Source: a virus. Taken from it: a DNA stretch of 32,765 nt. A program made the translations under genes and the position numbers. Numbering within the stretch: the stretch's first letter is position 1; each line of letters opens with the position of its first letter. A model generated the notes under the pieces. The model saw only the letters and a list, made by a program, of their open reading frames with translations, had not been told where the DNA came from and did not search any database. The stretch covers positions 1-32,765 of the IMG/VR virus record IMGVR_UViG_3300032294_000861, one strand, 5' to 3'. Shown here piece by piece: positions 4,935-32,765 of the stretch.

Positions 4935-7900
4935 ATGCCTATTGACGTTAGGATGCCCGATGGGACTCTGATCACAGGTGTCCCAGATAACATAACGCAA
5001 GCTGATTTAATGGCTCGCTTTGACGCTTTTAAAGCGCAACCAGTCACGTCTACAGCTCCAGAAATTCAAGTCACACCACAAGCGCCTCAGGTTGGCCCTG
5101 AAGGTGCTCCAATTCCCTCTGTATTACAAACTCAACCTCAAGTATCAGAAGATAGACCTATCGCTGGATCTGCTAGAAAAGGCGTTGTTAATCTACAACA
5201 AACAGTTGAGAATCTAAAACTTGCTAATCTTATGGAATTACAAGATGCATACAAGAGTCAGTATGGTCAAGATTACGAGAATGCTCCCCCAGAAAAGATT
5301 GCAGACTTACAAAAATTAGAAGACGATATTAATACTTCTAGACGTATGTCTACGTCTTATGATTTACAACGTCAAACACTCACTAAAAAATATGGTATTA
5401 CGCCATTAGCTCAAAAGCTAGATGCAGTTCAATCAACGCCAGAATATGAAAAAGCTAATACTTTACAAAAGTTTCAAGCTATTGGTGAAACGCTTGTTAA
5501 AAACCCAGGCGACATCCCATCTTATATTGGTAACATTGGATTAGAAAGTTTACCTAATTCACTAGCCATGATGGCATCTGCCGTGCTTGCTAGATACATG
5601 ACTGGTAGTTCATCTGCTGCAGCTACAGCAGGCGGTGCATCATCTTCATTCATGGAGTTTGGTAATCAATATGTAAACGCTAGAGATCAAGGCAAAACTC
5701 ATCAAGATGCTATGACAGAATCTGCAGTCAAGTCTGGCGTTATTGGTTACTTTGATGCTGTGTCATTTGGATCTGCTGGTAAAGCATTAGAAGCTATTGT
5801 AAAAGACTTTCAAAAAGGTGCTATCAAAGCTACCGCTAAAGAAGTAGGAAAAGAAACAGGTAAGCAAGCAGGTTATGGCGCAGCTGGTGAAGCTGTAGGC
5901 TCTGTAATTACAGGCCAAGAAGTTGACCCACGTGCCGTAGTAGAAGAAGCATTAGGTGAAATTGCTGGTGCACCTATGGAAGCAGTCACTACTTACAAAT
6001 CTACTAAAGCTGCAGCTGAAGCACAACCAACCCCACCTCCAGTCTCTGAAAGAATAGAACCAGAAGTTACACCTATTAGACCAAGACCAGAAGTTACACC
6101 TGAGCAACCTATTGCTACAGAGCCTGCTCCAATACAAACTGTACAAGCAGAACCAACAAAAGTAGAAACATCATATGATACTCAAGCTATGCTTGATGAA
6201 TTGTCTGGTAAAGATGTTGAATATGTACCAGAAGAAGAAGTTAAAGTTGCTGAGCCAACAAAAGAAGAAGTTGTTAAAACACCTGAAACAGAATTACCAA
6301 TAGGCTCAACAGTAAGATGGAATGATGATGGTACTCAAGTTGAATCAACCATTTTAGATACAATGTCTAAAAATGGTATTACTATGTATAAGGTTACCTC
6401 TACAGATCCAGCAAGATCAAATGGAGTATGGGTTGAGTCATCTAATTTAAATCCTGTTGTAACTCCTGAAGTTAAAGAAGAGCCTACAGGCGTTATATCA
6501 GAAACAGAAAAAGAGTTTACTCCAGTAGGCGGAAGATTAATTAATAAAGCAGATGTAGCTAGACTTGGCCGTGAGTCAGCTATGGCATTACAACAAAACT
6601 TAGCTACTCAAGAAGCTGAGAAACAAAAACAACTTAAACAAGAAGCTCGTGAAGAAAAGTTTAGAGAGCCTCCCACACAAACATTATCTGCAAGATTAGT
6701 TCAAGAAGGCGGTATTAGCCGTTCTCAAAAACGAGATATGCTTGGTGAGACAGGTAAGATTGAAGGCTACGATCATGTCTTTAGAGAAAAAGGCGGTGAT
6801 CTTTTAACGCTTGTTAAAGACGGTAAGCTTGATGAGTACTTGCCTCCAGATATTAGAACTACTGCTACGCCACCAGATGGACTCTTTGATGCTAGACCAG
6901 GATACAACTACATCTCTGACCTAATCAAGACTGGTGAAAAAATCCATACATATGATTATGAAATGGCTAAGCTTCAACATGAGAACATGGTCTATGAAAA
7001 GAACTTAGCTAAACAACAAATGACACCTAATGAAGCAGCAAGAGCAGCAGCTGCAGAAGAACAAGGTAAAGTCTTTTTATCTCAAGGTCAGATTGAAGGT
7101 GGCAGCACACCAGACATCATTACTCAATCAGTTAAAAATGAACTTGGTAAGGAAGGCAGTAAGCTTCTCGACAATAAGAAGATTATTATTGTTAAAGACA
7201 TCAATGAACTTAGAGAAAAGAATTATCTTGGCGATAGGATTAATCAGCTAACAGATAACACTCGTGCCTTGTATGATCCAGTCACTGATCGTTCATACTT
7301 TATATCTGATCGTATGAAACCTAGTGAAGTTAGAGCTATGGCTATGCATGAAGTCGGAACACACTATGGCATGAAGAAAATGCTTGGTGATGCTGGATTT
7401 AAAACCGTATTAAATAATGTAAAAAGATTAAGCGCTACAGATTCTCCTGTAAGAAAAGCATACAACGAAACGCTTAAAGCTTATAGCAATCTATTAGAAA
7501 CAAATCCAGACGCTTTCTATGAAGAGGTATTAGCTTACTTAGGTGAAACTGCACCTAACCATTCTTTATGGAAACAAATACTACAAAAAGTTAAAGCATT
7601 CCTAATCAAGTACGGAATCGTTAAGGATATATCTGCCTCCGAACTGCAAGACTTAGTGATGACATCTTTAAGACGTGCATCTTATGAAAAGGCTAAACCT
7701 TTGAAGGCAGCTACTGAAACAAAGGTAATGTCTTCAGAAAAAGAACAAATCAAAAAAATAGCTGGATGGACAGATGATCGACTAGATAAATTAATGGACA
7801 ACGGTACTTATTCGCAAAATGAAAAATTTGCTAGGAAGTATGCTGTCATGATGACTCCTGATGAATTTTTAGGTTTAACCACCAATAAAGATATGATGGA

Positions 7901-10900
7901 AACCTTAGAAAAAGAAGCAGACGAAATGGGTCCTCTTGATATTAACACCATGCGTGAATATGATCTTCCTATGTTCTTAGATATAAAAGGACCTCGCACC
8001 ATAGAGATGGAAGATAAATGGGGTTCTAAAGTTGATGAGTCTGATGTTGCCTTAAAAGTAAAAGGACATGAAGGTAGACATAGAGCTATTCTTATGAAGC
8101 GAGCTGGTGTAGAAAGTTTTCCAGTTATACTAAATCCTGAAGGTGGTGGACAAGTAGAAAGAGACACAATAAGAGTATTAAAGCTTTTCCCTCAATTTAC
8201 AGAAGGACGTGCTGCTGTTGTGAGGAACGCTATACCACTCAACAGACTTTATGAAAATGAATTAAAAGGTATGCTTGATGAGTCAACGATTAAATACTCA
8301 CAAAGACCACCACGCAATATCAAAGGCCAAGAAGTTATTCCTCAATGGCATGGTCCTGAAGAATCTAAAATTGATACATGGATTTACAGACTACAAAACA
8401 AACAGATCGATACTAAGCGTGTTCAAGAGCTGATTGGTGACATAGAAGAAGACTGGAATGTATACGACAAAGAACAGCTCTATCATGGTAGAACCGCAGC
8501 TGGCATTCGTAATTTCTTACTTAAAGAACTTTTACCAGTCATCAAAGAGATTGAACGCTTAAAGATTAGTCCTGAAGATATTCGTACTTACTTGCATAAT
8601 CGTCATGCAGAAGAACGTAATAATCAAATGAATAAGATTAACCCTGATGTCTATGATGAGACTACAGGAAGAACCATACCTAATCCACTTAAAGATAAAG
8701 GATCTGGTATATCTACTGCTGACGCAAGAGCTTACCTAGCAGGTTTAGATCCAGCTAGAAAACAATTACTAGAACAGATTGCTACTAAGTTTGACCAAAT
8801 GGTTAAGGGTACACAACAGATCTTAATTAACTCTGGTGCTGAATCTGCTGATACGATTGCTAAATGGAATAGCACATATGAACACTATGTTCCTCTCTTC
8901 CGTATTGAAGATGAGATGGCTAGACCAACAGGTATGGGTGGTACAGGTCAAGGCTTTGGTGTACGTGGCGCATTCAGTAAACGTGCTATGGGTTCAGAGA
9001 AAGATGTTCAAGACATTTTAAGTAACATTATTGCTCAACGTGAGCGTGCTTTAATTCGTGCTGAGAAGATTAGAGTAGGTCGTGCTTTATACGGTCTAGC
9101 TATTCAGAATCCTAATCCAGACTTCTGGTTACCTATCAATCCTGATGCTATTAGAAACAGGAAGCAAGCTGTTGCTGAATTAAGACGCATGGGTGTACCT
9201 GATGCTGAGCAGATGATTGATAATCTCATGGCAGAACCTAAAGAGCGCTATCTTAAAAAGACGAGAGCTGCTGAAGAAGGTTTTGAACCTGATGAAGACT
9301 TTGACTTTGACTCAGGTTTACCAGTCAACGAAAGTAAAGAAGTCGTAGCATCTAAAGTTAACGTCATGGCACGTTACAAAGACTTTGTGTTCCCAGTACG
9401 CATCAATGGTAAGGATAGATATATATTCTTTAATAAGAATGATCCAAGAGCCTTACGTATGGTTCAAGCACTAAAGAACTTAGATGCAGAAAACTTAGGT
9501 TACCTTGAAAGTATCTTTGGTAGATTCACTCGCTGGTTTAAGAACGTTAACACCCAATACAACCCAGTCTTTGGTCTAGTCAACTTCCTTCGTGATATGA
9601 GTGGTACATTCCTTAATCTTACAAACACAGAGATTAAAGGCAAACAAGCACAAGTGATTGCAGGTGCTTATAAAGCCATGGGTGGTATCTTAAATGTACA
9701 TAGAGCTGAACGTAAAGGTAAACCATTACCTACTGGACCATGGGCTACATTATATCAAGAAGCTCGTGATGAAGGTTTCCAAACAGGTTATCGTGATTCA
9801 TTGATCCGTAACCAAGAAGAGATGCAGATTGTTGAACGTACACTATCACAATTTAAAGATGGCAATACTAAGAAAGCTTTCTATGCAGTATTAGGTGGCC
9901 TTACAGATTATAACGATATGATGGAAAATGCATTCCGTCTATCAGCATACAAGGTTGCTCGTGATCAAGGCTTATCTAAACAAAAAGCAGCGATCATTGC
10001 TAAGAACCTTACAGTTAACTTTGATAGAAAAGGTGCTTGGACATCTTCAGTCAATGCGCTCTATGCATTTTTTAATGCTTCCGTACAAGGTACTGAACGT
10101 ATCTATCAAACACTTAAAGGTCCTAAAGGCAGAATCATTATTGGTGGTGGTATCTTAGCTGGTATGGTACAAGCTGTTATGTTAGCTGCCGCTGGATATG
10201 GTGATGATGATCCTCCAGAGTTTGTCCGTGAAAAGAACTTTATTATTCCACTCGCTGATGGTACATATATAACCGTGCCTTATCCATTAGGCTATAACAT
10301 ACTACCTAACTCAGGCCGTATCGTAATGGACTTTATGATTCATGGTGGACGTAATCCAGGCAAACATACAACAGCACTTATGTCAGCTATCATGAATTCA
10401 TTTAACCCATTAGGTAGCTCTGGTTTTGCAATACAAACACTCATGCCTACTGCTATTGACCCATTAGTTGCACTAGCAGAAAACAAAGATGCGTTTGGTC
10501 GTCCTATCTATAGACCTGATCGTACTACAGCACCGACACCAGGTTATACAAGATCAAGAGATACATCTTCTACATTAGGTAAAGGCCTCGCTGAATTCTT
10601 AAACTGGGCATCAGGTGGAACTAAATATACAAAAGGTTCAATTAGTCCTACAGCTGATGAGATAGACTTCCTTGCTGGCCAAGTGGGCGGTGGTTTATAT
10701 CGTGAAGTATCTAAAGCAGCCAAAGCTGTTGGCGCTCAGTCTACAGGTGAAGCATTAGCGCCTTATCAAAGACCGCTTGTAAGTAGATTCTATGGTGAAA
10801 CAGGATCTCCTGCAGCTGTATCTCAAACATTCTATAACAATATTACTCGTATGACTGACCATGAGAATGAGATTAAAGGTCGTATGAAGAATAGAGAAGA

Positions 10901-11108
10901 CGTACAAAGCTACTTAGATAACAATCCAGAAGCTAGGTTATGGAAGAGAGCTAACTCTATTGAGAATAAGATTAATGAATTAAACAAGAGAAAACGTACA
11001 TTTATACAACGTGGCTATCCTAAAGAGCGTGTTCAAGCTATTGACGCACAAAAGACCATGATGATGCAGAGATTTAATGATCAGGTAAGTAAGCTTACGC
11101 CTGATTAA
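4935..11108 (+). CDS. giant polyvalent internal virion protein with metallopeptidase motif
   Basis: 2057 residues, the largest protein here. The N-terminus has the recurrent phage motif MPDGTLITGVPDNITQADL. Residues about 365-475 are a Pro/Glu/Val/Thr-rich linker. Around residue 805, MAMHEVGTHYGMKKML gives H-E-x-x-x-H, resembling the metallopeptidase domain of phage polyvalent proteins. Around residue 1055, VKGHEGRHRAILMKRAG marks another small domain. Residues about 1490-1850 resemble a large polyvalent-protein-associated domain (YNPVFGLVNFLRDMSGTFLN) and include a hydrophobic IIIGGGILAGMVQAVMLAAAG segment. Such proteins are packaged and injected with the genome, carrying cell-wall, membrane or anti-defence activities. 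The convergent rusA gene overlaps its last 14 bases. Identity as an injected multidomain protein is fairly secure; domain functions are inferred. Confidence 0.75.
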   Translation: MPIDVRMPDGTLITGVPDNITQADLMARFDAFKAQPVTSTAPEIQVTPQAPQVGPEGAPIPSVLQTQPQVSEDRPIAGSARKGVVNLQQTVENLKLANLMELQDAYKSQYGQDYENAPPEKIADLQKLEDDINTSRRMSTSYDLQRQTLTKKYGITPLAQKLDAVQSTPEYEKANTLQKFQAIGETLVKNPGDIPSYIGNIGLESLPNSLAMMASAVLARYMTGSSSAAATAGGASSSFMEFGNQYVNARDQGKTHQDAMTESAVKSGVIGYFDAVSFGSAGKALEAIVKDFQKGAIKATAKEVGKETGKQAGYGAAGEAVGSVITGQEVDPRAVVEEALGEIAGAPMEAVTTYKSTKAAAEAQPTPPPVSERIEPEVTPIRPRPEVTPEQPIATEPAPIQTVQAEPTKVETSYDTQAMLDELSGKDVEYVPEEEVKVAEPTKEEVVKTPETELPIGSTVRWNDDGTQVESTILDTMSKNGITMYKVTSTDPARSNGVWVESSNLNPVVTPEVKEEPTGVISETEKEFTPVGGRLINKADVARLGRESAMALQQNLATQEAEKQKQLKQEAREEKFREPPTQTLSARLVQEGGISRSQKRDMLGETGKIEGYDHVFREKGGDLLTLVKDGKLDEYLPPDIRTTATPPDGLFDARPGYNYISDLIKTGEKIHTYDYEMAKLQHENMVYEKNLAKQQMTPNEAARAAAAEEQGKVFLSQGQIEGGSTPDIITQSVKNELGKEGSKLLDNKKIIIVKDINELREKNYLGDRINQLTDNTRALYDPVTDRSYFISDRMKPSEVRAMAMHEVGTHYGMKKMLGDAGFKTVLNNVKRLSATDSPVRKAYNETLKAYSNLLETNPDAFYEEVLAYLGETAPNHSLWKQILQKVKAFLIKYGIVKDISASELQDLVMTSLRRASYEKAKPLKAATETKVMSSEKEQIKKIAGWTDDRLDKLMDNGTYSQNEKFARKYAVMMTPDEFLGLTTNKDMMETLEKEADEMGPLDINTMREYDLPMFLDIKGPRTIEMEDKWGSKVDESDVALKVKGHEGRHRAILMKRAGVESFPVILNPEGGGQVERDTIRVLKLFPQFTEGRAAVVRNAIPLNRLYENELKGMLDESTIKYSQRPPRNIKGQEVIPQWHGPEESKIDTWIYRLQNKQIDTKRVQELIGDIEEDWNVYDKEQLYHGRTAAGIRNFLLKELLPVIKEIERLKISPEDIRTYLHNRHAEERNNQMNKINPDVYDETTGRTIPNPLKDKGSGISTADARAYLAGLDPARKQLLEQIATKFDQMVKGTQQILINSGAESADTIAKWNSTYEHYVPLFRIEDEMARPTGMGGTGQGFGVRGAFSKRAMGSEKDVQDILSNIIAQRERALIRAEKIRVGRALYGLAIQNPNPDFWLPINPDAIRNRKQAVAELRRMGVPDAEQMIDNLMAEPKERYLKKTRAAEEGFEPDEDFDFDSGLPVNESKEVVASKVNVMARYKDFVFPVRINGKDRYIFFNKNDPRALRMVQALKNLDAENLGYLESIFGRFTRWFKNVNTQYNPVFGLVNFLRDMSGTFLNLTNTEIKGKQAQVIAGAYKAMGGILNVHRAERKGKPLPTGPWATLYQEARDEGFQTGYRDSLIRNQEEMQIVERTLSQFKDGNTKKAFYAVLGGLTDYNDMMENAFRLSAYKVARDQGLSKQKAAIIAKNLTVNFDRKGAWTSSVNALYAFFNASVQGTERIYQTLKGPKGRIIIGGGILAGMVQAVMLAAAGYGDDDPPEFVREKNFIIPLADGTYITVPYPLGYNILPNSGRIVMDFMIHGGRNPGKHTTALMSAIMNSFNPLGSSGFAIQTLMPTAIDPLVALAENKDAFGRPIYRPDRTTAPTPGYTRSRDTSSTLGKGLAEFLNWASGGTKYTKGSISPTADEIDFLAGQVGGGLYREVSKAAKAVGAQSTGEALAPYQRPLVSRFYGETGSPAAVSQTFYNNITRMTDHENEIKGRMKNREDVQSYLDNNPEARLWKRANSIENKINELNKRKRTFIQRGYPKERVQAIDAQKTMMMQRFNDQVSKLTPD

Positions 11109-18102: not shown

Positions 18103-18717
18103 TTACCAAAACATAGTCAATACGCCATTCAAGCGTATCAAATGTCCTTGTAATGTAATCCTGTATTCCCCACTTACATAAGTTTTTAACCCAGCAATCC
18201 TATGTAGTATAGTGCCATGATGGCCTATAAATTCTTTCTCTTCATAGGCTAGGTGTTTCTGTTTCCCATCTTCAATATAATCCATACCAGCCCCACCGCT
18301 TGGAAGTTTAATAGCTACGGTGAATGCATAGGGATCAACTGATCCTAAGTCTAATGTAAGATGCGGGTAGTCTTGATGCCAAATACCTGCATGGCTAAGC
18401 AGGAATGGACTTGACATAAAGATATGAAAGGAAGGTACAGCTAGACGATCACTGATTGCAATAGGTTCACCGAACTGATTTGATAAGTGATCAATAATGA
18501 TAGCATATAAGCTATCAAATTCTTTTAGAAGTATTGGGTTAAGAGTCTTGATTTCCTCATGGTAAGCTGGGGTCTTTCCATCTAGGTAAGAGCACCTTCC
18601 AAGAGTGTAGAACGGGAATTCATTTGATCTTGATATCCAGTGATGTTGTAGTCTAAAGACCTTATCTGCTATCTCATCAACATCTATATCAAGTTTATGG
18701 CGTACAAAAGGGGACAT
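18103..18717 (-). CDS. 2OG-Fe(II) oxygenase
   Basis: 204 residues with the iron/2-oxoglutarate triad of the double-stranded β-helix oxygenases: GIWHQDYPH (H114, D116), LHRIAG (H172) and GEYRITLQGH (R186, binding 2-oxoglutarate). It would hydroxylate a peptide, nucleic-acid base or small molecule; the sequence does not reveal the substrate. It follows pqqA by 44 bases on the same strand and is probably co-transcribed with it. Its AGGGGA binding site and ATG lie within a perfect 7-bp hairpin. The stop abuts that of the rightward operon with no terminator between. A role in tailoring the PqqA peptide is attractive but unproven; phage genomes also carry such enzymes in other contexts. Confidence 0.8.
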   Translation of the reverse strand: MSPFVRHKLDIDVDEIADKVFRLQHHWISRSNEFPFYTLGRCSYLDGKTPAYHEEIKTLNPILLKEFDSLYAIIIDHLSNQFGEPIAISDRLAVPSFHIFMSSPFLLSHAGIWHQDYPHLTLDLGSVDPYAFTVAIKLPSGGAGMDYIEDGKQKHLAYEEKEFIGHHGTILHRIAGLKTYVSGEYRITLQGHLIRLNGVLTMFW

Positions 18718-18726
18718 AAGTCCCCT
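18709..18726 (-). promoter_or_regulatory. Shine-Dalgarno-sequestering hairpin at oxygenase start
   Basis: Reading the minus strand, AGGGGAC-TTAT-GTCCCCT is a perfect 7-bp inverted repeat with a 4-base loop. The ribosome binding site AGGGGA is the left arm; the ATG straddles loop and right arm (AT in the loop, G paired). A TATAAT hexamer ends just upstream. Folding would hide both the binding site and the start codon, so translation should depend on something that opens the hairpin. Confidence 0.7.
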
Positions 18727-18761
18727 ATTATACTACTAATAGCAATCTGTTACGATAACCA

Positions 18762-18833
18762 TTACTTGTTCATTACGTACATAGTTACTTCAAAGCCAAA
18801 ACGCATTTCAGTAGCTGCTGGAGTTGTCCACAT
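18762..18833 (-). CDS. pqqA: PqqA, precursor peptide of coenzyme PQQ
   Basis: A 23-residue peptide starting MWTTPAATEMRF with core GFEVTMYVMNK. In cellular PqqA (usually 22-24 residues, pattern MW..PA...LR.GFEVT.Y), PqqE crosslinks the Glu and Tyr of E-x-x-x-Y with PqqD; proteolysis, PqqB and PqqC complete pyrroloquinoline quinone. Here E15 and Y19 have exactly that spacing and position. AGGAG lies 7 bases upstream of the ATG, so it is translated from its own site. No other pqq gene is in the window, so the product would feed the host pathway, supporting PQQ-dependent methanol or alcohol dehydrogenases. The peptide is too short for usual gene callers. Identification from pattern is strong; benefit to the phage is inference. 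Confidence 0.9.
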   Translation of the reverse strand: MWTTPAATEMRFGFEVTMYVMNK

Positions 18834-18852
18834 AGTATTTCTCCTAAAAATT

Positions 18853-18872
18853 TATACACTTGATTGTGTATA
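18853..18872 (-). promoter_or_regulatory. inverted repeat in pqqA leader
   Basis: TATACAC and GTGTATA flank a 6-base centre, a perfect 7-bp dyad ending about 20 bases before the pqqA ATG. In the RNA it could form a hairpin just ahead of a run AAATTTTT and the AGGAG binding site, so it may be an attenuator, a stabilising 5' hairpin or a protein operator. Confidence 0.5.
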
Positions 18873-18934
18873 TGTTTATATTATTCCCATTTATATACAT
18901 ATCCATCAGTAAAACCATGAATCCAGCCTAATTC

Positions 18935-18955
18935 TATATAACATTTAGTTATATA
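18935..18955 (-). promoter_or_regulatory. AT-rich palindrome, possible operator of pqqA
   Basis: TATATAAC-ATTTA-GTTATATA is a perfect 8-bp inverted repeat in the AT-rich stretch about 100 bases upstream of pqqA and 32 bases before the divergent small-RNA -35 box. Several -10-like hexamers (TATATA, TATAGA) on the minus strand overlap it, so it may be a repressor site over the pqqA promoter. No single promoter is convincing here. Confidence 0.4.
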
Positions 18956-18986
18956 CAAGTATTTCTATATAATTTTTACAAATATG

Positions 18987-19015
18987 TTGACAGGAATAGT
19001 CAGGTTTGTTATAGT
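18987..19015 (+). promoter_or_regulatory. strong sigma70 promoter of small RNA
   Basis: TTGACA, a 17-base spacer and TATAGT: a consensus -35, ideal spacing and a near-consensus -10. Transcription should start at about 19022 (G), exactly where the first hairpin of the downstream RNA begins. It is the best housekeeping-type promoter I can find in the window. Confidence 0.85.
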
Positions 19016-19021
19016 TTCGTT

Positions 19022-19125
19022 GTGAGTCCCTTTCCTCACGTGTCTTCCCTTTATCTCTTCTCTCGATAAAGTTCGGTGTCCCTCGCACCTTAAAACCCTT
19101 AGACTGATCATCTAGGGGTTTTTTC
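19022..19125 (+). ncRNA. structured ~103-nt small RNA with pyrimidine-rich loops
   Basis: Bounded by a consensus promoter and a strong terminator, without a credible reading frame. Four consecutive hairpins can be read: GTGAG/CTCAC with loop TCCCTTTC; CTTTATC/GATAAAG (7 bp) with loop TCTTCTCTC; GGTG/CACC with loop TCCCTCG; and the 12-bp terminator. The linker TGTCTTCC is also pyrimidine-rich. C-rich UCCC loops are a known way for regulatory RNAs (for example RsaE-type RNAs) to bind Shine-Dalgarno sequences. Loop 1 matches GAAAGGG(A) binding sites in the phage leftward operon and resembles the 3' tail of 16S rRNA (CCUCCUUUC). An antisense or anti-SD regulator is the best inference. Confidence 0.75.
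19092..19124 (+). terminator. rho-independent terminator of the small RNA
   Basis: AAAACCCTTAGA pairs with TCTAGGGGTTTT (12 bp with one G-T pair) around the loop CTGATCA, followed by further T residues. The A-run on the left arm makes it potentially bidirectional, so it would also stop leftward read-through. Confidence 0.9.
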
Positions 19126-19135
19126 TTTGTAGCTA

Positions 19136-19164
19136 TTGCTTTTTTATCCAAGTAGGTGTAAATT
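19136..19164 (+). promoter_or_regulatory. candidate promoter of the replication operon
   Basis: TTGCTT, a 17-base spacer and TAAATT just after the small-RNA terminator. Both hexamers are imperfect, but the spacing is right and the location is where the rightward genes need a new promoter after a strong terminator. Confidence 0.4.
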
Positions 19165-19198
19165 AATAAATGAGAGAAGCGAATTGGGGAGATTGATG

Positions 19199-19291
19199 AT
19201 GTATTTCTACGTCATCATCTTTCTATTCCCTTTTGTCCGTACTCCAAACGATATCAGTGAACCTACATGGGTTGCTTGGAAGAATACATAG
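19199..19291 (+). CDS. possible hydrophobic micropeptide ending at an amber codon
   Basis: 30 residues beginning MYFYVIIFLFPFVRTPNDIS with GGGGAG seven bases upstream of the ATG (another ATG lies three bases earlier). The hydrophobic start could be a membrane segment. It ends at TAG, yet the same frame stays open for 31 more codons (GEP-like region ASEPRELKWVSHKMHRTG and a CLLC pair) to a TGA. Either this is a leader peptide, a decayed gene, or coincidence in a structured leader. Confidence 0.3.
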   Translation: MYFYVIIFLFPFVRTPNDISEPTWVAWKNT

Positions 19292-19470
19292 GCCTTGTTT
19301 ACACCCGCAAGCGAGCCTCGTGAACTTAAATGGGTATCACACAAGATGCATAGGACTGGGGTGACTTGCCTACTATGCACCGATTGAACATTAACTCTGT
19401 GTAGGATTGGTATTGAGTGTGCTTCTGTTGCTTGATATGGATCAAAGGTGCTACTTCTCACCCTAGGCGG
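19259..19470 (+). repeat. degenerate ~63-nt repeats in the leader
   Basis: Two clear units begin GAACCTACATGGGTTGCT and GAACTTAAATGGGTATCA 63 bases apart, each reaching a CATAGG box. A third GAAC with a TAGG box follows after 64 bases, and a weaker fourth TAGG box later. The TAGG boxes are spaced 62, 51 and 62 bases. Similarity is imperfect, so this is a decayed tandem duplication or a series of related RNA hairpins. Confidence 0.4.
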
Positions 19471-19500
19471 AGCTATCTCTAAAAACAATGAAAGGATCAT

Positions 19501-19674
19501 ATGGATTTTACCCACGCAGTTGTAGACGATGGCGATATCATCAGAAAATATCGTTGGTCAAAACGAGAAGCTAAATGGTATAAAGATTCACACCCTGATA
19601 TAGATGTGATAGAGTTACCTAAAGCACCAAAAGAAGTATTTAATTTTAACGATTACGAGGAAGCACCATACTAA
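19501..19674 (+). CDS. small hypothetical protein
   Basis: 57 residues (MDFTHAVVDDGDIIRKYRWS, then an aromatic basic middle and the acidic end NFNDYEEAPY). AAAGGA lies six bases before the ATG. First secure gene of the rightward replication block; its stop shares a base with the next ATG. No family recognised. Confidence 0.6.
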   Translation: MDFTHAVVDDGDIIRKYRWSKREAKWYKDSHPDIDVIELPKAPKEVFNFNDYEEAPY

Positions 19675-19841
19675 TGAGCGAAGTCTATCATAAAAAATAT
19701 CTAACGACTGAACAGGTCATAGCAATCAAGAAGGCATTGAAGACCATGCCTATTCCAAAGGTAGCTAAACAATTTAATCTTAAGAAACACAATGTAAGAA
19801 ACATATATCTAGGTATATCATACAGAACGGTAGGTGAATAA
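19674..19841 (+). CDS. small helix-turn-helix protein
   Basis: 55 residues. After a short start, LTTEQVIAIKKALKTMPIPK VAKQF is followed by NLKKHNVRNIYLGISYRTV: a two-helix turn typical of the HTH found in resolvases and in homing-nuclease tails (pattern ...IAKxFxVxxxxVxxIxxGxxY). A DNA-binding role is likely. Overlaps both neighbours by one base (TAATG), consistent with coupled translation. Confidence 0.65.
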   Translation: MSEVYHKKYLTTEQVIAIKKALKTMPIPKVAKQFNLKKHNVRNIYLGISYRTVGE

Positions 19842-19999
19842 TGGCTGAGACAAAGAAAACAATCATAGTTGAAAATGTTTTAGTTAAAGGGTATATTAAA
19901 CACGCTAATGGAAAAAAGACTTTGTTTGAATTTAACAAGCAAGACTTTAACCCAAAGGCATTCGAGAAAATATTTGAGGAAGTGGGGAATAAGTTTTAA
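19841..19999 (+). CDS. small hypothetical protein
   Basis: 52 residues: MAETKKTIIVENVLVKGYIK, then HANGKKTLFEFNKQDFN and a terminal helix PKAFEKIFEEVGNKF. A small β-β-α domain by appearance. It shares single bases with both adjacent genes (TAATG). Function unknown. Confidence 0.6.
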   Translation: MAETKKTIIVENVLVKGYIKHANGKKTLFEFNKQDFNPKAFEKIFEEVGNKF

Positions 20000-31072: not shown

Positions 31073-31297
31073 ATGACCCCAGCACAAAAAGAGATCTTTC
31101 TGATCGTTGACGAGTTCTGGAAAACCTATGGCTTTGGTCCGACTATAGATGATGTGATGCGTCTAACGGGCGAAAAGGGTAGGGGTAATGTGGCCCGTAA
31201 GATGCAAATACTTATTGAGATAGGGGTTTGCAAAGGGGTCAAAGGGCGTGCTCGTTCAATCCGTCCAGCTGGGTTAAGGGTAAGAGATCTTGAGTGA
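31073..31297 (+). CDS. winged-helix protein, LexA-DNA-binding-like
   Basis: 74 residues: MTPAQKEIFLIVDEFWKTYG FGPTIDDVMRLTGEKGRGNV ARKMQILIEIGVCKGVKGRA RSIRP. This is the LexA N-terminal winged helix order (first helix, GxxPTxxD, second helix, wing with RARSIRP) without the protease domain. A regulator or packaging-site binding protein are possible roles. Overlaps terL by 8 bases. Confidence 0.7.
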   Translation: MTPAQKEIFLIVDEFWKTYGFGPTIDDVMRLTGEKGRGNVARKMQILIEIGVCKGVKGRARSIRPAGLRVRDLE

Positions 31298-32765
31298 TAA
31301 AGTCGTAGAACTGATGAATATGCTATCGCCTGAAGAACAGGCTATGGTATTAGAACAAGTCAGAGAGTATGACAACGCTTTACTTCGTGAAGAAGGCAGT
31401 GAAGACTTTATGAAGTTTGTAACGACTATGTGGCCTGGATTTATTCATGGAAGACACCATGTTTTAATGGCGAGGAAGTTTGAACAGATCGCTAATGGTG
31501 AGATCAAACGATTAATCATTAACATGCCTCCTCGACACACAAAGTCTGAGTTTGCATCCTTTTTACTCCCTGCATGGTTCTTAGGAAGGTTTCCAGGTAA
31601 GAAGATTATTCAGTGTTCTAATACAGCTGAACTTGCAGTTGGGTTTGGACGAAAGGTGCGAAATCTGGTAGACTCTGAAGTCTATGCGAAAATATTCCCA
31701 AATGTCGCCCTTCGGTCTGACTCTAAAGCTGCTGGTCGCTGGAGTACTAATGCTAATGGTGAGTACTTTGCTATTGGTGTGGGTGGTACTGTCACAGGTA
31801 AGGGAGCTGATCTACTCATCATTGATGACCCGCATTCGGAACAGGAAGCAGCATTAGCCGCTGGAGATCCATCGGTATACGATAAAGTATTTGAGTGGTA
31901 CACCTCTGGTCCACGTCAACGTTTACAACCAGGAGGTTCGATTGTAGTCGTTATGACCCGTTGGGCTAAACGAGACCTCACAGGCAGGATTCTACAATCC
32001 ATGACGGATCGTGATGGTGATGAATGGGAAATTATAGAACTCCCAGCTATCTTACCTAGTGAGAAACCTTTATGGCCTGAGTTCTGGTCTTTTGATGAAT
32101 TAAGTAAACTAAGAATAGAGTTGCCGTTATCTAAATGGCAAGCTCAGTACCAACAAGACCCAACCTCTGAAGAAGGTGCGCTAGTTAAGCGTGAATGGTG
32201 GCAAGAGTGGGAAAACGAAAACCCACCTTATTGTCAGTTCATTATTCAGTCATGGGATACCGCTTTTACTAAGAATGAACGTTCTGACTATTCAGCTTGT
32301 ACCACTTGGGGAGTGTTTTATAAAGATGAAAACGAAAATGATCCTCATATTATTCTTCTTGATGCTCTTAAAGAGCGGATGGAATTCCCTGAGCTTAAGG
32401 CAAGAGCTTTGGAATACTACCAAGAATGGCAACCTGATGCCTTTATAATCGAAGCAAAAGCCTCTGGAGCCCCGTTAGTCTTTGAATTAAGAAGGATGGG
32501 AATACCCGTTCAAGAGTTTACACCGACCCGTGGAAACGATAAAATAAGCAGATTAAACTCTGTAACAGATTTATTCGCTTCTGGCAAGGTTTGGGCACCA
32601 CGCAAAAGGTGGGCCGAAGAAGTCATAGAAGAGATGGCAGCCTTTCCAAATTCAGACCACGATGACTTAGTGGACTCTTCAACCCAAGCTCTTATTCGGT
32701 TTAGAAAGGGAGGATTCGTTAATCTTCCAACAGACGAACCAGATGAACCAAGAGAATTTAGACGC
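31290..32765 (+). CDS. terL: terminase large subunit (partial, runs off window)
   Basis: At least 492 residues; the 3' end lies beyond the window. A TTG start overlapping the previous gene gives SDKVVELMNMLSPEEQ; an in-frame ATG lies 24 bases later. The ATPase domain has NMPPRHTKSEF (Walker A variant), GADLLIIDDPHSEQE (Walker B) and VVVMTRWAKRDLTG. The RNase H-like nuclease domain has SWDTAF, DAFIIEAKASG and HDDLVDSSTQAL, with its acidic metal ligands. It pumps and cuts phage DNA at the portal. Together with TerS it places the start of the virion module at the right edge. Confidence 0.92.
   Translation, partial: MSDKVVELMNMLSPEEQAMVLEQVREYDNALLREEGSEDFMKFVTTMWPGFIHGRHHVLMARKFEQIANGEIKRLIINMPPRHTKSEFASFLLPAWFLGRFPGKKIIQCSNTAELAVGFGRKVRNLVDSEVYAKIFPNVALRSDSKAAGRWSTNANGEYFAIGVGGTVTGKGADLLIIDDPHSEQEAALAAGDPSVYDKVFEWYTSGPRQRLQPGGSIVVVMTRWAKRDLTGRILQSMTDRDGDEWEIIELPAILPSEKPLWPEFWSFDELSKLRIELPLSKWQAQYQQDPTSEEGALVKREWWQEWENENPPYCQFIIQSWDTAFTKNERSDYSACTTWGVFYKDENENDPHIILLDALKERMEFPELKARALEYYQEWQPDAFIIEAKASGAPLVFELRRMGIPVQEFTPTRGNDKISRLNSVTDLFASGKVWAPRKRWAEEVIEEMAAFPNSDHDDLVDSSTQALIRFRKGGFVNLPTDEPDEPREFRR

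Follow-up and report, generated by a model that had tools for sequence, protein, structure and literature searches.

Members of the Methylophilaceae carry several copies of pqqA alongside a single pqqBCDEFG (PMC4109929), and two studies have placed pqqA in viruses. A T4-like viral population from Lake Baikal, VP_266, which was assigned to Methylophilaceae, encodes PqqA, and the same study reports a viral methanol dehydrogenase (Coutinho et al., 2020; PMC7678222). A 2026 reservoir survey names viral pqqA, pqqE and pqqD (PMC13188868). Phage PqqA as such is already known; what looks new here is the general spread of pqqA among methylophages and an 8-codon micro-gene that accompanies it in one lineage. 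No PqqA turned up when the papers on MEP301, MEP401/402, Venkman and Melnitz were searched as text, the sole reference to PQQ there being as a medium ingredient.

The locus described here lies in a window of 32,765 nucleotides of viral DNA, by which we mean the whole stretch that was analysed. The original prediction had proposed that a 23-codon minus-strand gene, with an AGGAG at the correct spacing, encodes the PQQ precursor peptide, and its frame, start, stop and ribosome site are all as claimed. The gene occupies positions 18762-18833 (minus strand), encodes MWTTPAATEMRFGFEVTMYVMNK and terminates at a TAA stop (18764-18762), and its Shine-Dalgarno AGGAG (18841-18845, minus strand) is 7 nt upstream of the ATG, a position held by AAGGA or AGGAG in almost all related pqqA copies. 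The identification as PqqA is borne out by both curated profiles, with scores well above the cut-offs (PF08042, 40.3 bits, E 3e-10, cut-off 21.1; TIGR02107, 38.8 bits, E 5.6e-10, cut-off 20), and the peptide contains the E-x-x-x-Y pair crosslinked by PqqE, as E15 and Y19. This was the sole PqqA match when the whole record was scanned, and no other Pfam or NCBIfam family was found near the ORF. There is no PHROGs family for the peptide, and a PDB sequence search with it as query gave no match. The window also encodes a large terminase, a helicase and RusA, and pqqA thereby satisfies one criterion for an auxiliary metabolic gene, that of a host-gene homologue inside a phage gene set. The ORF is confirmed as a genuine phage PqqA, and the first reading of it was sound. 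Elsewhere in the window, positions 4935-11108 (plus strand) encode a 2057-aa polyvalent virion-type protein with an LPD38 domain.

For the analysis of selection, phage copies of pqqA were found through the downstream micro-ORF described below, which leaves the set unconditioned for pqqA except at its stop codon. Across 47 distinct copies, dN/dS was 0.060. Furthermore, E15 and Y19 were kept in 58 of 58 copies, with synonymous codon changes at both sites; conservation of this pair in related phages had been set beforehand as a check on the prediction, and it was met in full. Phage pqqA is under purifying selection and, because of the low dN/dS and the retention of both crosslinked residues despite codon changes, is not a chance ORF.

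When 50,697 phage records were searched by tblastn with the PqqA peptide, the named phages matched were P19250A (identical), Venkman, MEP301, MEP401, MEP402, four Melnitz genomes and one uncultured spring phage. All nine of the methylophage isolate genomes retrieved (those just listed, apart from the spring phage) carry pqqA. This count refers to retrievable genomes; methylophages MEP431-434 fall outside the sample, and isolates without pqqA may exist. The carriers belong to different phage types, including the siphovirus-like P19250A and Venkman, the podovirus MEP301, MEP402 of the Zobellviridae and the T4-like Melnitz. The suggestion that length filters had missed the gene fits these genomes, as their pqqA loci are nearly always unannotated or covered by hypothetical proteins on the opposite strand. 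The rest of the pqq pathway, predicted to be absent, was not found in the window; nine phage records, among them six named phage genomes, were searched and each had one PqqA and no PqqE, and tblastn detected none of PqqB, C, D or E at 164 phage pqqA loci, compared with 18-26 matches per gene at host loci. Adjacency to pqqBCDE, which is common but not defining for PqqA (many host copies stand alone), is therefore not met by phage pqqA. The tblastn search gave no further hits except two contigs named 'Acinetobacter phage MD-2021a', which were rejected as sources of phage PqqA, the one inspected (CAKLQF020000010.1) apparently being host chromosome with ppk and pqqBCDE.

Retention of pqqA was also assessed with an anchor independent of it, the Venkman YqaJ recombinase, for which 80 contigs were recovered from IMG/VR. 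pqqA lies nearby in 31 of the 36 contigs whose YqaJ reaches 62% identity or more across most of its length, and two of the five exceptions end within or just past the YqaJ gene. None of the remaining 44 carries it, one of these having an incomplete, closely related YqaJ at the edge of its contig. Thus, the host boundary of pqqA in YqaJ-anchored phages is sharp. When the window helicase was the anchor, pqqA was present in all eight relatives that are at least 77% identical and have sufficient contig reach. A MEP402-type anchor gave pqqA in just 2 of 17 contigs, so some related lineages do not keep the gene within reach. Under the stricter of our grouping rules, pqqA phages fall into 54 groups, at least 13 of which have the micro-gene; both counts are inflated by short contigs, and clustering on a single shared gene merged nearly all phages and was rejected.

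The predicted PQQ-dependent, methylotrophic host is well supported by these comparisons. Among named phage records, PqqA without a pqq operon was seen only in Methylophilales phages and the one uncultured spring phage, and the window peptide has the same sequence as PqqA in many Methylophilaceae. A pattern made from the phage peptide and run over 84,980 species genomes returned at least 120 matches, and among the matches listed every record title either names a genus of Methylophilaceae or is less specific but consistent with this family. Of the host PqqA copies fetched, 56 are identical to the window peptide, essentially all from Methylophilaceae, and the closest host gene matches the window pqqA at 70 of 72 bases. 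As far as sequence alone can tell, a Methylophilaceae host for the window phage is well supported. The closest relatives of the window's large terminase (31290-32765, plus strand; 54-59%) are those of Pelagibacter phages HTVC023P and HTVC027P and phage 023Pt_psg01, despite the inferred methylotroph host.

In the host family, pqqA was present in 120 of 120 sampled genomes, with a median of 4 copies (range 1-12), as scattered minigenes ending in terminators. At some Methylophilaceae loci, the copies stand in tandem, separated by about 200 bases and differing in sequence (MWTQPQATEMRFGFEVTMYVCNR beside a standard copy). PqqE scored above the cut-off in 57 of 60 host-family genomes, and PqqB, C and D were also found in host loci, which satisfies a further criterion for an auxiliary metabolic gene, namely that the host holds the remainder of the pathway.

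Because the hosts carry about four pqqA copies together with that remaining pathway, an extra supply of substrate for host PqqE and PqqD is the likeliest role for the phage peptide. We consider it probable, with good though incomplete confidence, that the minigene acts as an additional substrate dose for the host PQQ pathway; its expression, the use of its product as substrate and any effect on PQQ are inferred. From a short transcript equipped with a ribosome site and a terminator of its own, the phage would make a peptide identical to host PqqA. Host PqqD and PqqE would bind this peptide and join Glu15 to Tyr19 by a crosslink, PQQ would be completed by host proteases together with PqqB and PqqC, and the cofactor would feed PQQ-dependent methanol dehydrogenase while the phage shuts off or degrades the host genome. 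As one PqqA molecule is consumed for each PQQ made, and as the hosts themselves multiply pqqA when the other genes are typically single, carrying the substrate gene alone would be the cheapest way to keep up the flux. The phage peptide is the same as that of the host, so it is very likely a PqqE/PqqD substrate if it is translated. Higher PQQ during infection, and a benefit of PqqA to the phage, remain inferences, and several hosts are so rich in pqqA that a further copy might add little if the host genes are not shut off.

Two other roles for the peptide can be weighed against this proposal. A short peptide without its own pathway could in principle occupy PqqD and PqqE as a decoy or competitive inhibitor and so lower PQQ. 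However, the phage peptide has exactly the sequence of the host substrate, and the crosslinked residues, whose loss one would expect in a decoy, persist in every copy of the selection set; we regard inhibition as highly improbable. It is also very unlikely, in our judgement, that pqqA is a neutral passenger without benefit to the phage. Host minigenes that are scattered, multi-copy and terminator-ended would be easy to acquire, but the strong constraint on the phage gene (dN/dS 0.06), its retention across phages as different as P19250A, Venkman, MEP301, MEP402 and Melnitz, and its presence in 31 of 36 contigs of one lineage speak against this reading.

In addition to pqqA, the window contains an 8-codon ORF that was not part of the original prediction. 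It lies at 18736-18762 (minus strand), encodes MVIVTDCY before a TAG stop, and overlaps the end of pqqA in the form TAATG, the final A of the pqqA stop codon doubling as the first base of its ATG. A pattern of the eight codons preceded by TA was searched in IMG/VR, and in 67 of 67 contigs with MVIVTDCY a pqqA gene ends at that same TAA; the pattern without TA returned the same 67 contigs, so no solitary copy of MVIVTDCY was found in IMG/VR. A second search avoided fixed amino acids, requiring only the pqqA end and TAATGGT and leaving codons 3-8 free. What followed was MV[I/F/T]VTDCY, except for six reads, of two sequence types, that had unrelated sequence. Each of the six third positions in codons 3-8 varies (mean minor frequency 0.29) compared with one first and one second position, and dN/dS is 0.013 (15 haplotypes). 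This coding pattern makes it very probable that MVIVTDCY is a genuine micropeptide gene, production of the peptide being inferred. A functional gene of comparable size exists in mccA of microcin C, which has 7 codons; its host and context differ. A literature search for the octapeptide found no paper.

The distribution of MVIVTDCY is narrower than that of pqqA. It was absent after about 130 host pqqA genes, from 187 host-family genomes and from behind pqqA in the isolates examined, so it is not needed for PQQ synthesis or by all methylophages. Moreover, two relatives of the window, one of them close, have pqqA alone, and the micro-gene is therefore dispensable. Mimicry of a host protein was considered and rejected, as the internal VIVTDCY is also missing from the 187 host-family genomes.

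Both ends of the cassette contain inverted repeats. On the 3' side, 9 nt past the micro-ORF stop, there is a hairpin resembling an intrinsic terminator, (A)GGGGAC-TTAT-GTCCCC(T) followed by TTTT (18706-18726, minus strand), which in the window lineage extends over the start codon of the following ORF. Its stem is kept in relatives with differing letters (GGGGAC/GTCCCC, GGGGTC/GACCCC and GGGGC/GCCCC); 12 different stem sequences were found, and in nearly all cases the stem begins 3-14 bases past the micro-ORF stop. A strong 3' hairpin follows 82-93% of phage and host pqqA genes, compared with 28% of control ORFs. On the 5' side, directly upstream of the ribosome site, lies the inverted repeat TATACAC-AATCAA-GTGTATA (18853-18872, minus strand), which is probably a 5' mRNA stem-loop or an operator. 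Relatives have 14 different 5' stem sequences at this position, above the shuffled 95th percentile, and this diversity favours a structured 5' end over a single operator sequence. The shuffles used for the 3' hairpin and for both cassette stems preserved base composition alone, for which reason the 5' result is the weaker of the two. Fold prediction gave the window transcript a greater stability than its dinucleotide shuffles (z -4.0), and the hairpin and inverted repeat are consistent with a short, self-contained and stable mRNA.

The next ORF (18103-18717, minus strand; 204 aa) belongs to phrog_24927, a family of unknown function, and is about 30% identical to proteins of the Prochlorococcus myophages P-HM1, P-HM2 and MED4-213. 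By annotation it is not found beside pqqA in P19250A, Venkman, MEP301 or MEP402, and it probably lies outside the pqqA cassette. An H-x-D motif together with a distant H gives no more than a hint of a possible Fe(II)/2-oxoglutarate oxygenase; a structure-based reading was abandoned, as the AlphaFold model was unusable (mean pLDDT 41). On the other side of pqqA, positions 18834-19998 have no convincing genes and several terminator-like hairpins (for example, at 19092-19122), and neither a tRNA nor an Rfam match was found there.

In the window and its relatives, the cassette would also make MVIVTDCY by stop-start coupling, and the peptide probably acts together with PqqA or on PqqA expression, although any role is inferred. 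It could act on the PQQ pathway or the fate of PqqA, by binding PqqD, PqqE or a protease or by being modified itself; the strict linkage to pqqA, without solo copies in IMG/VR, and the near-fixed residues encoded by variable codons speak for this. Its absence behind pqqA in the examined isolates and in the host genomes speaks against it, and we hold it to be plausible but short of probable. Alternatively, MVIVTDCY could be a ribosome-arrest or leader peptide rather than a free peptide with a target. Because the micro-ORF stop lies only 3-14 nt before the terminator, a paused ribosome would open the hairpin and permit transcription onwards or translation of the next gene. The regular spacing, the constraint at the amino-acid level (as in arrest peptides) and the overlap of the hairpin with the next start codon all suit such a function; however, the downstream sequence varies among cassettes, so there is no shared gene to regulate, and we think a leader function rather unlikely. 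Terminator spacing favours the leader peptide and strict pqqA linkage favours the pathway peptide, and the present data do not decide between them. The 27 nt are conserved at a constant position, as would be a non-coding recombination site, operator or mRNA structure, but the free codons vary chiefly at their third positions, which makes such an element very hard to sustain. That PqqA and MVIVTDCY form a two-peptide unit acting specifically on PQQ biosynthesis or PqqA processing is a tentative idea, about which we are more doubtful than convinced. If true, MVIVTDCY would be among the smallest conserved functional genes known and would represent a novel way for a phage to control the making of a cofactor.

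These observations suggest that phages of methylotrophs share a general and overlooked strategy, the supply of a cofactor precursor that is consumed, and that the gene is not a lone curiosity. Phage pqqA is a simple marker for linking uncultured phages to methylotrophic hosts. In addition, the 8-codon gene shows that strongly conserved phage genes can be much shorter than the minimum that gene callers accept, and its product is a defined peptide with which to probe PQQ synthesis or translation control.

In summary, the phage gene shares with Methylophilaceae pqqA a product of 23 residues with E15 and Y19 and, like many host copies, the form of a stand-alone minigene with a terminator; it differs in being encoded by a phage, without the remaining pathway, and in its coupling to MVIVTDCY in the window lineage. 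The reservoir survey likewise treats viral pqqA as an auxiliary metabolic gene, but it assigns pqqA, pqqE and pqqD to phosphate solubilisation and, in the part of its text available, gives neither a link to methylotrophs nor a cassette anatomy (PMC13188868). A close counterpart is the PqqA of VP_266, which is also encoded by a virus of Methylophilaceae and has the same proposed purpose. There, the gene belongs to a T4-like phage and was read jointly with a phage methanol dehydrogenase of the same population, and the available text contains no survey of other phages and reports no micro-ORF (PMC7678222). In contrast, the present analysis places pqqA in nine isolate records from several phage types, where it has nearly always gone unannotated.
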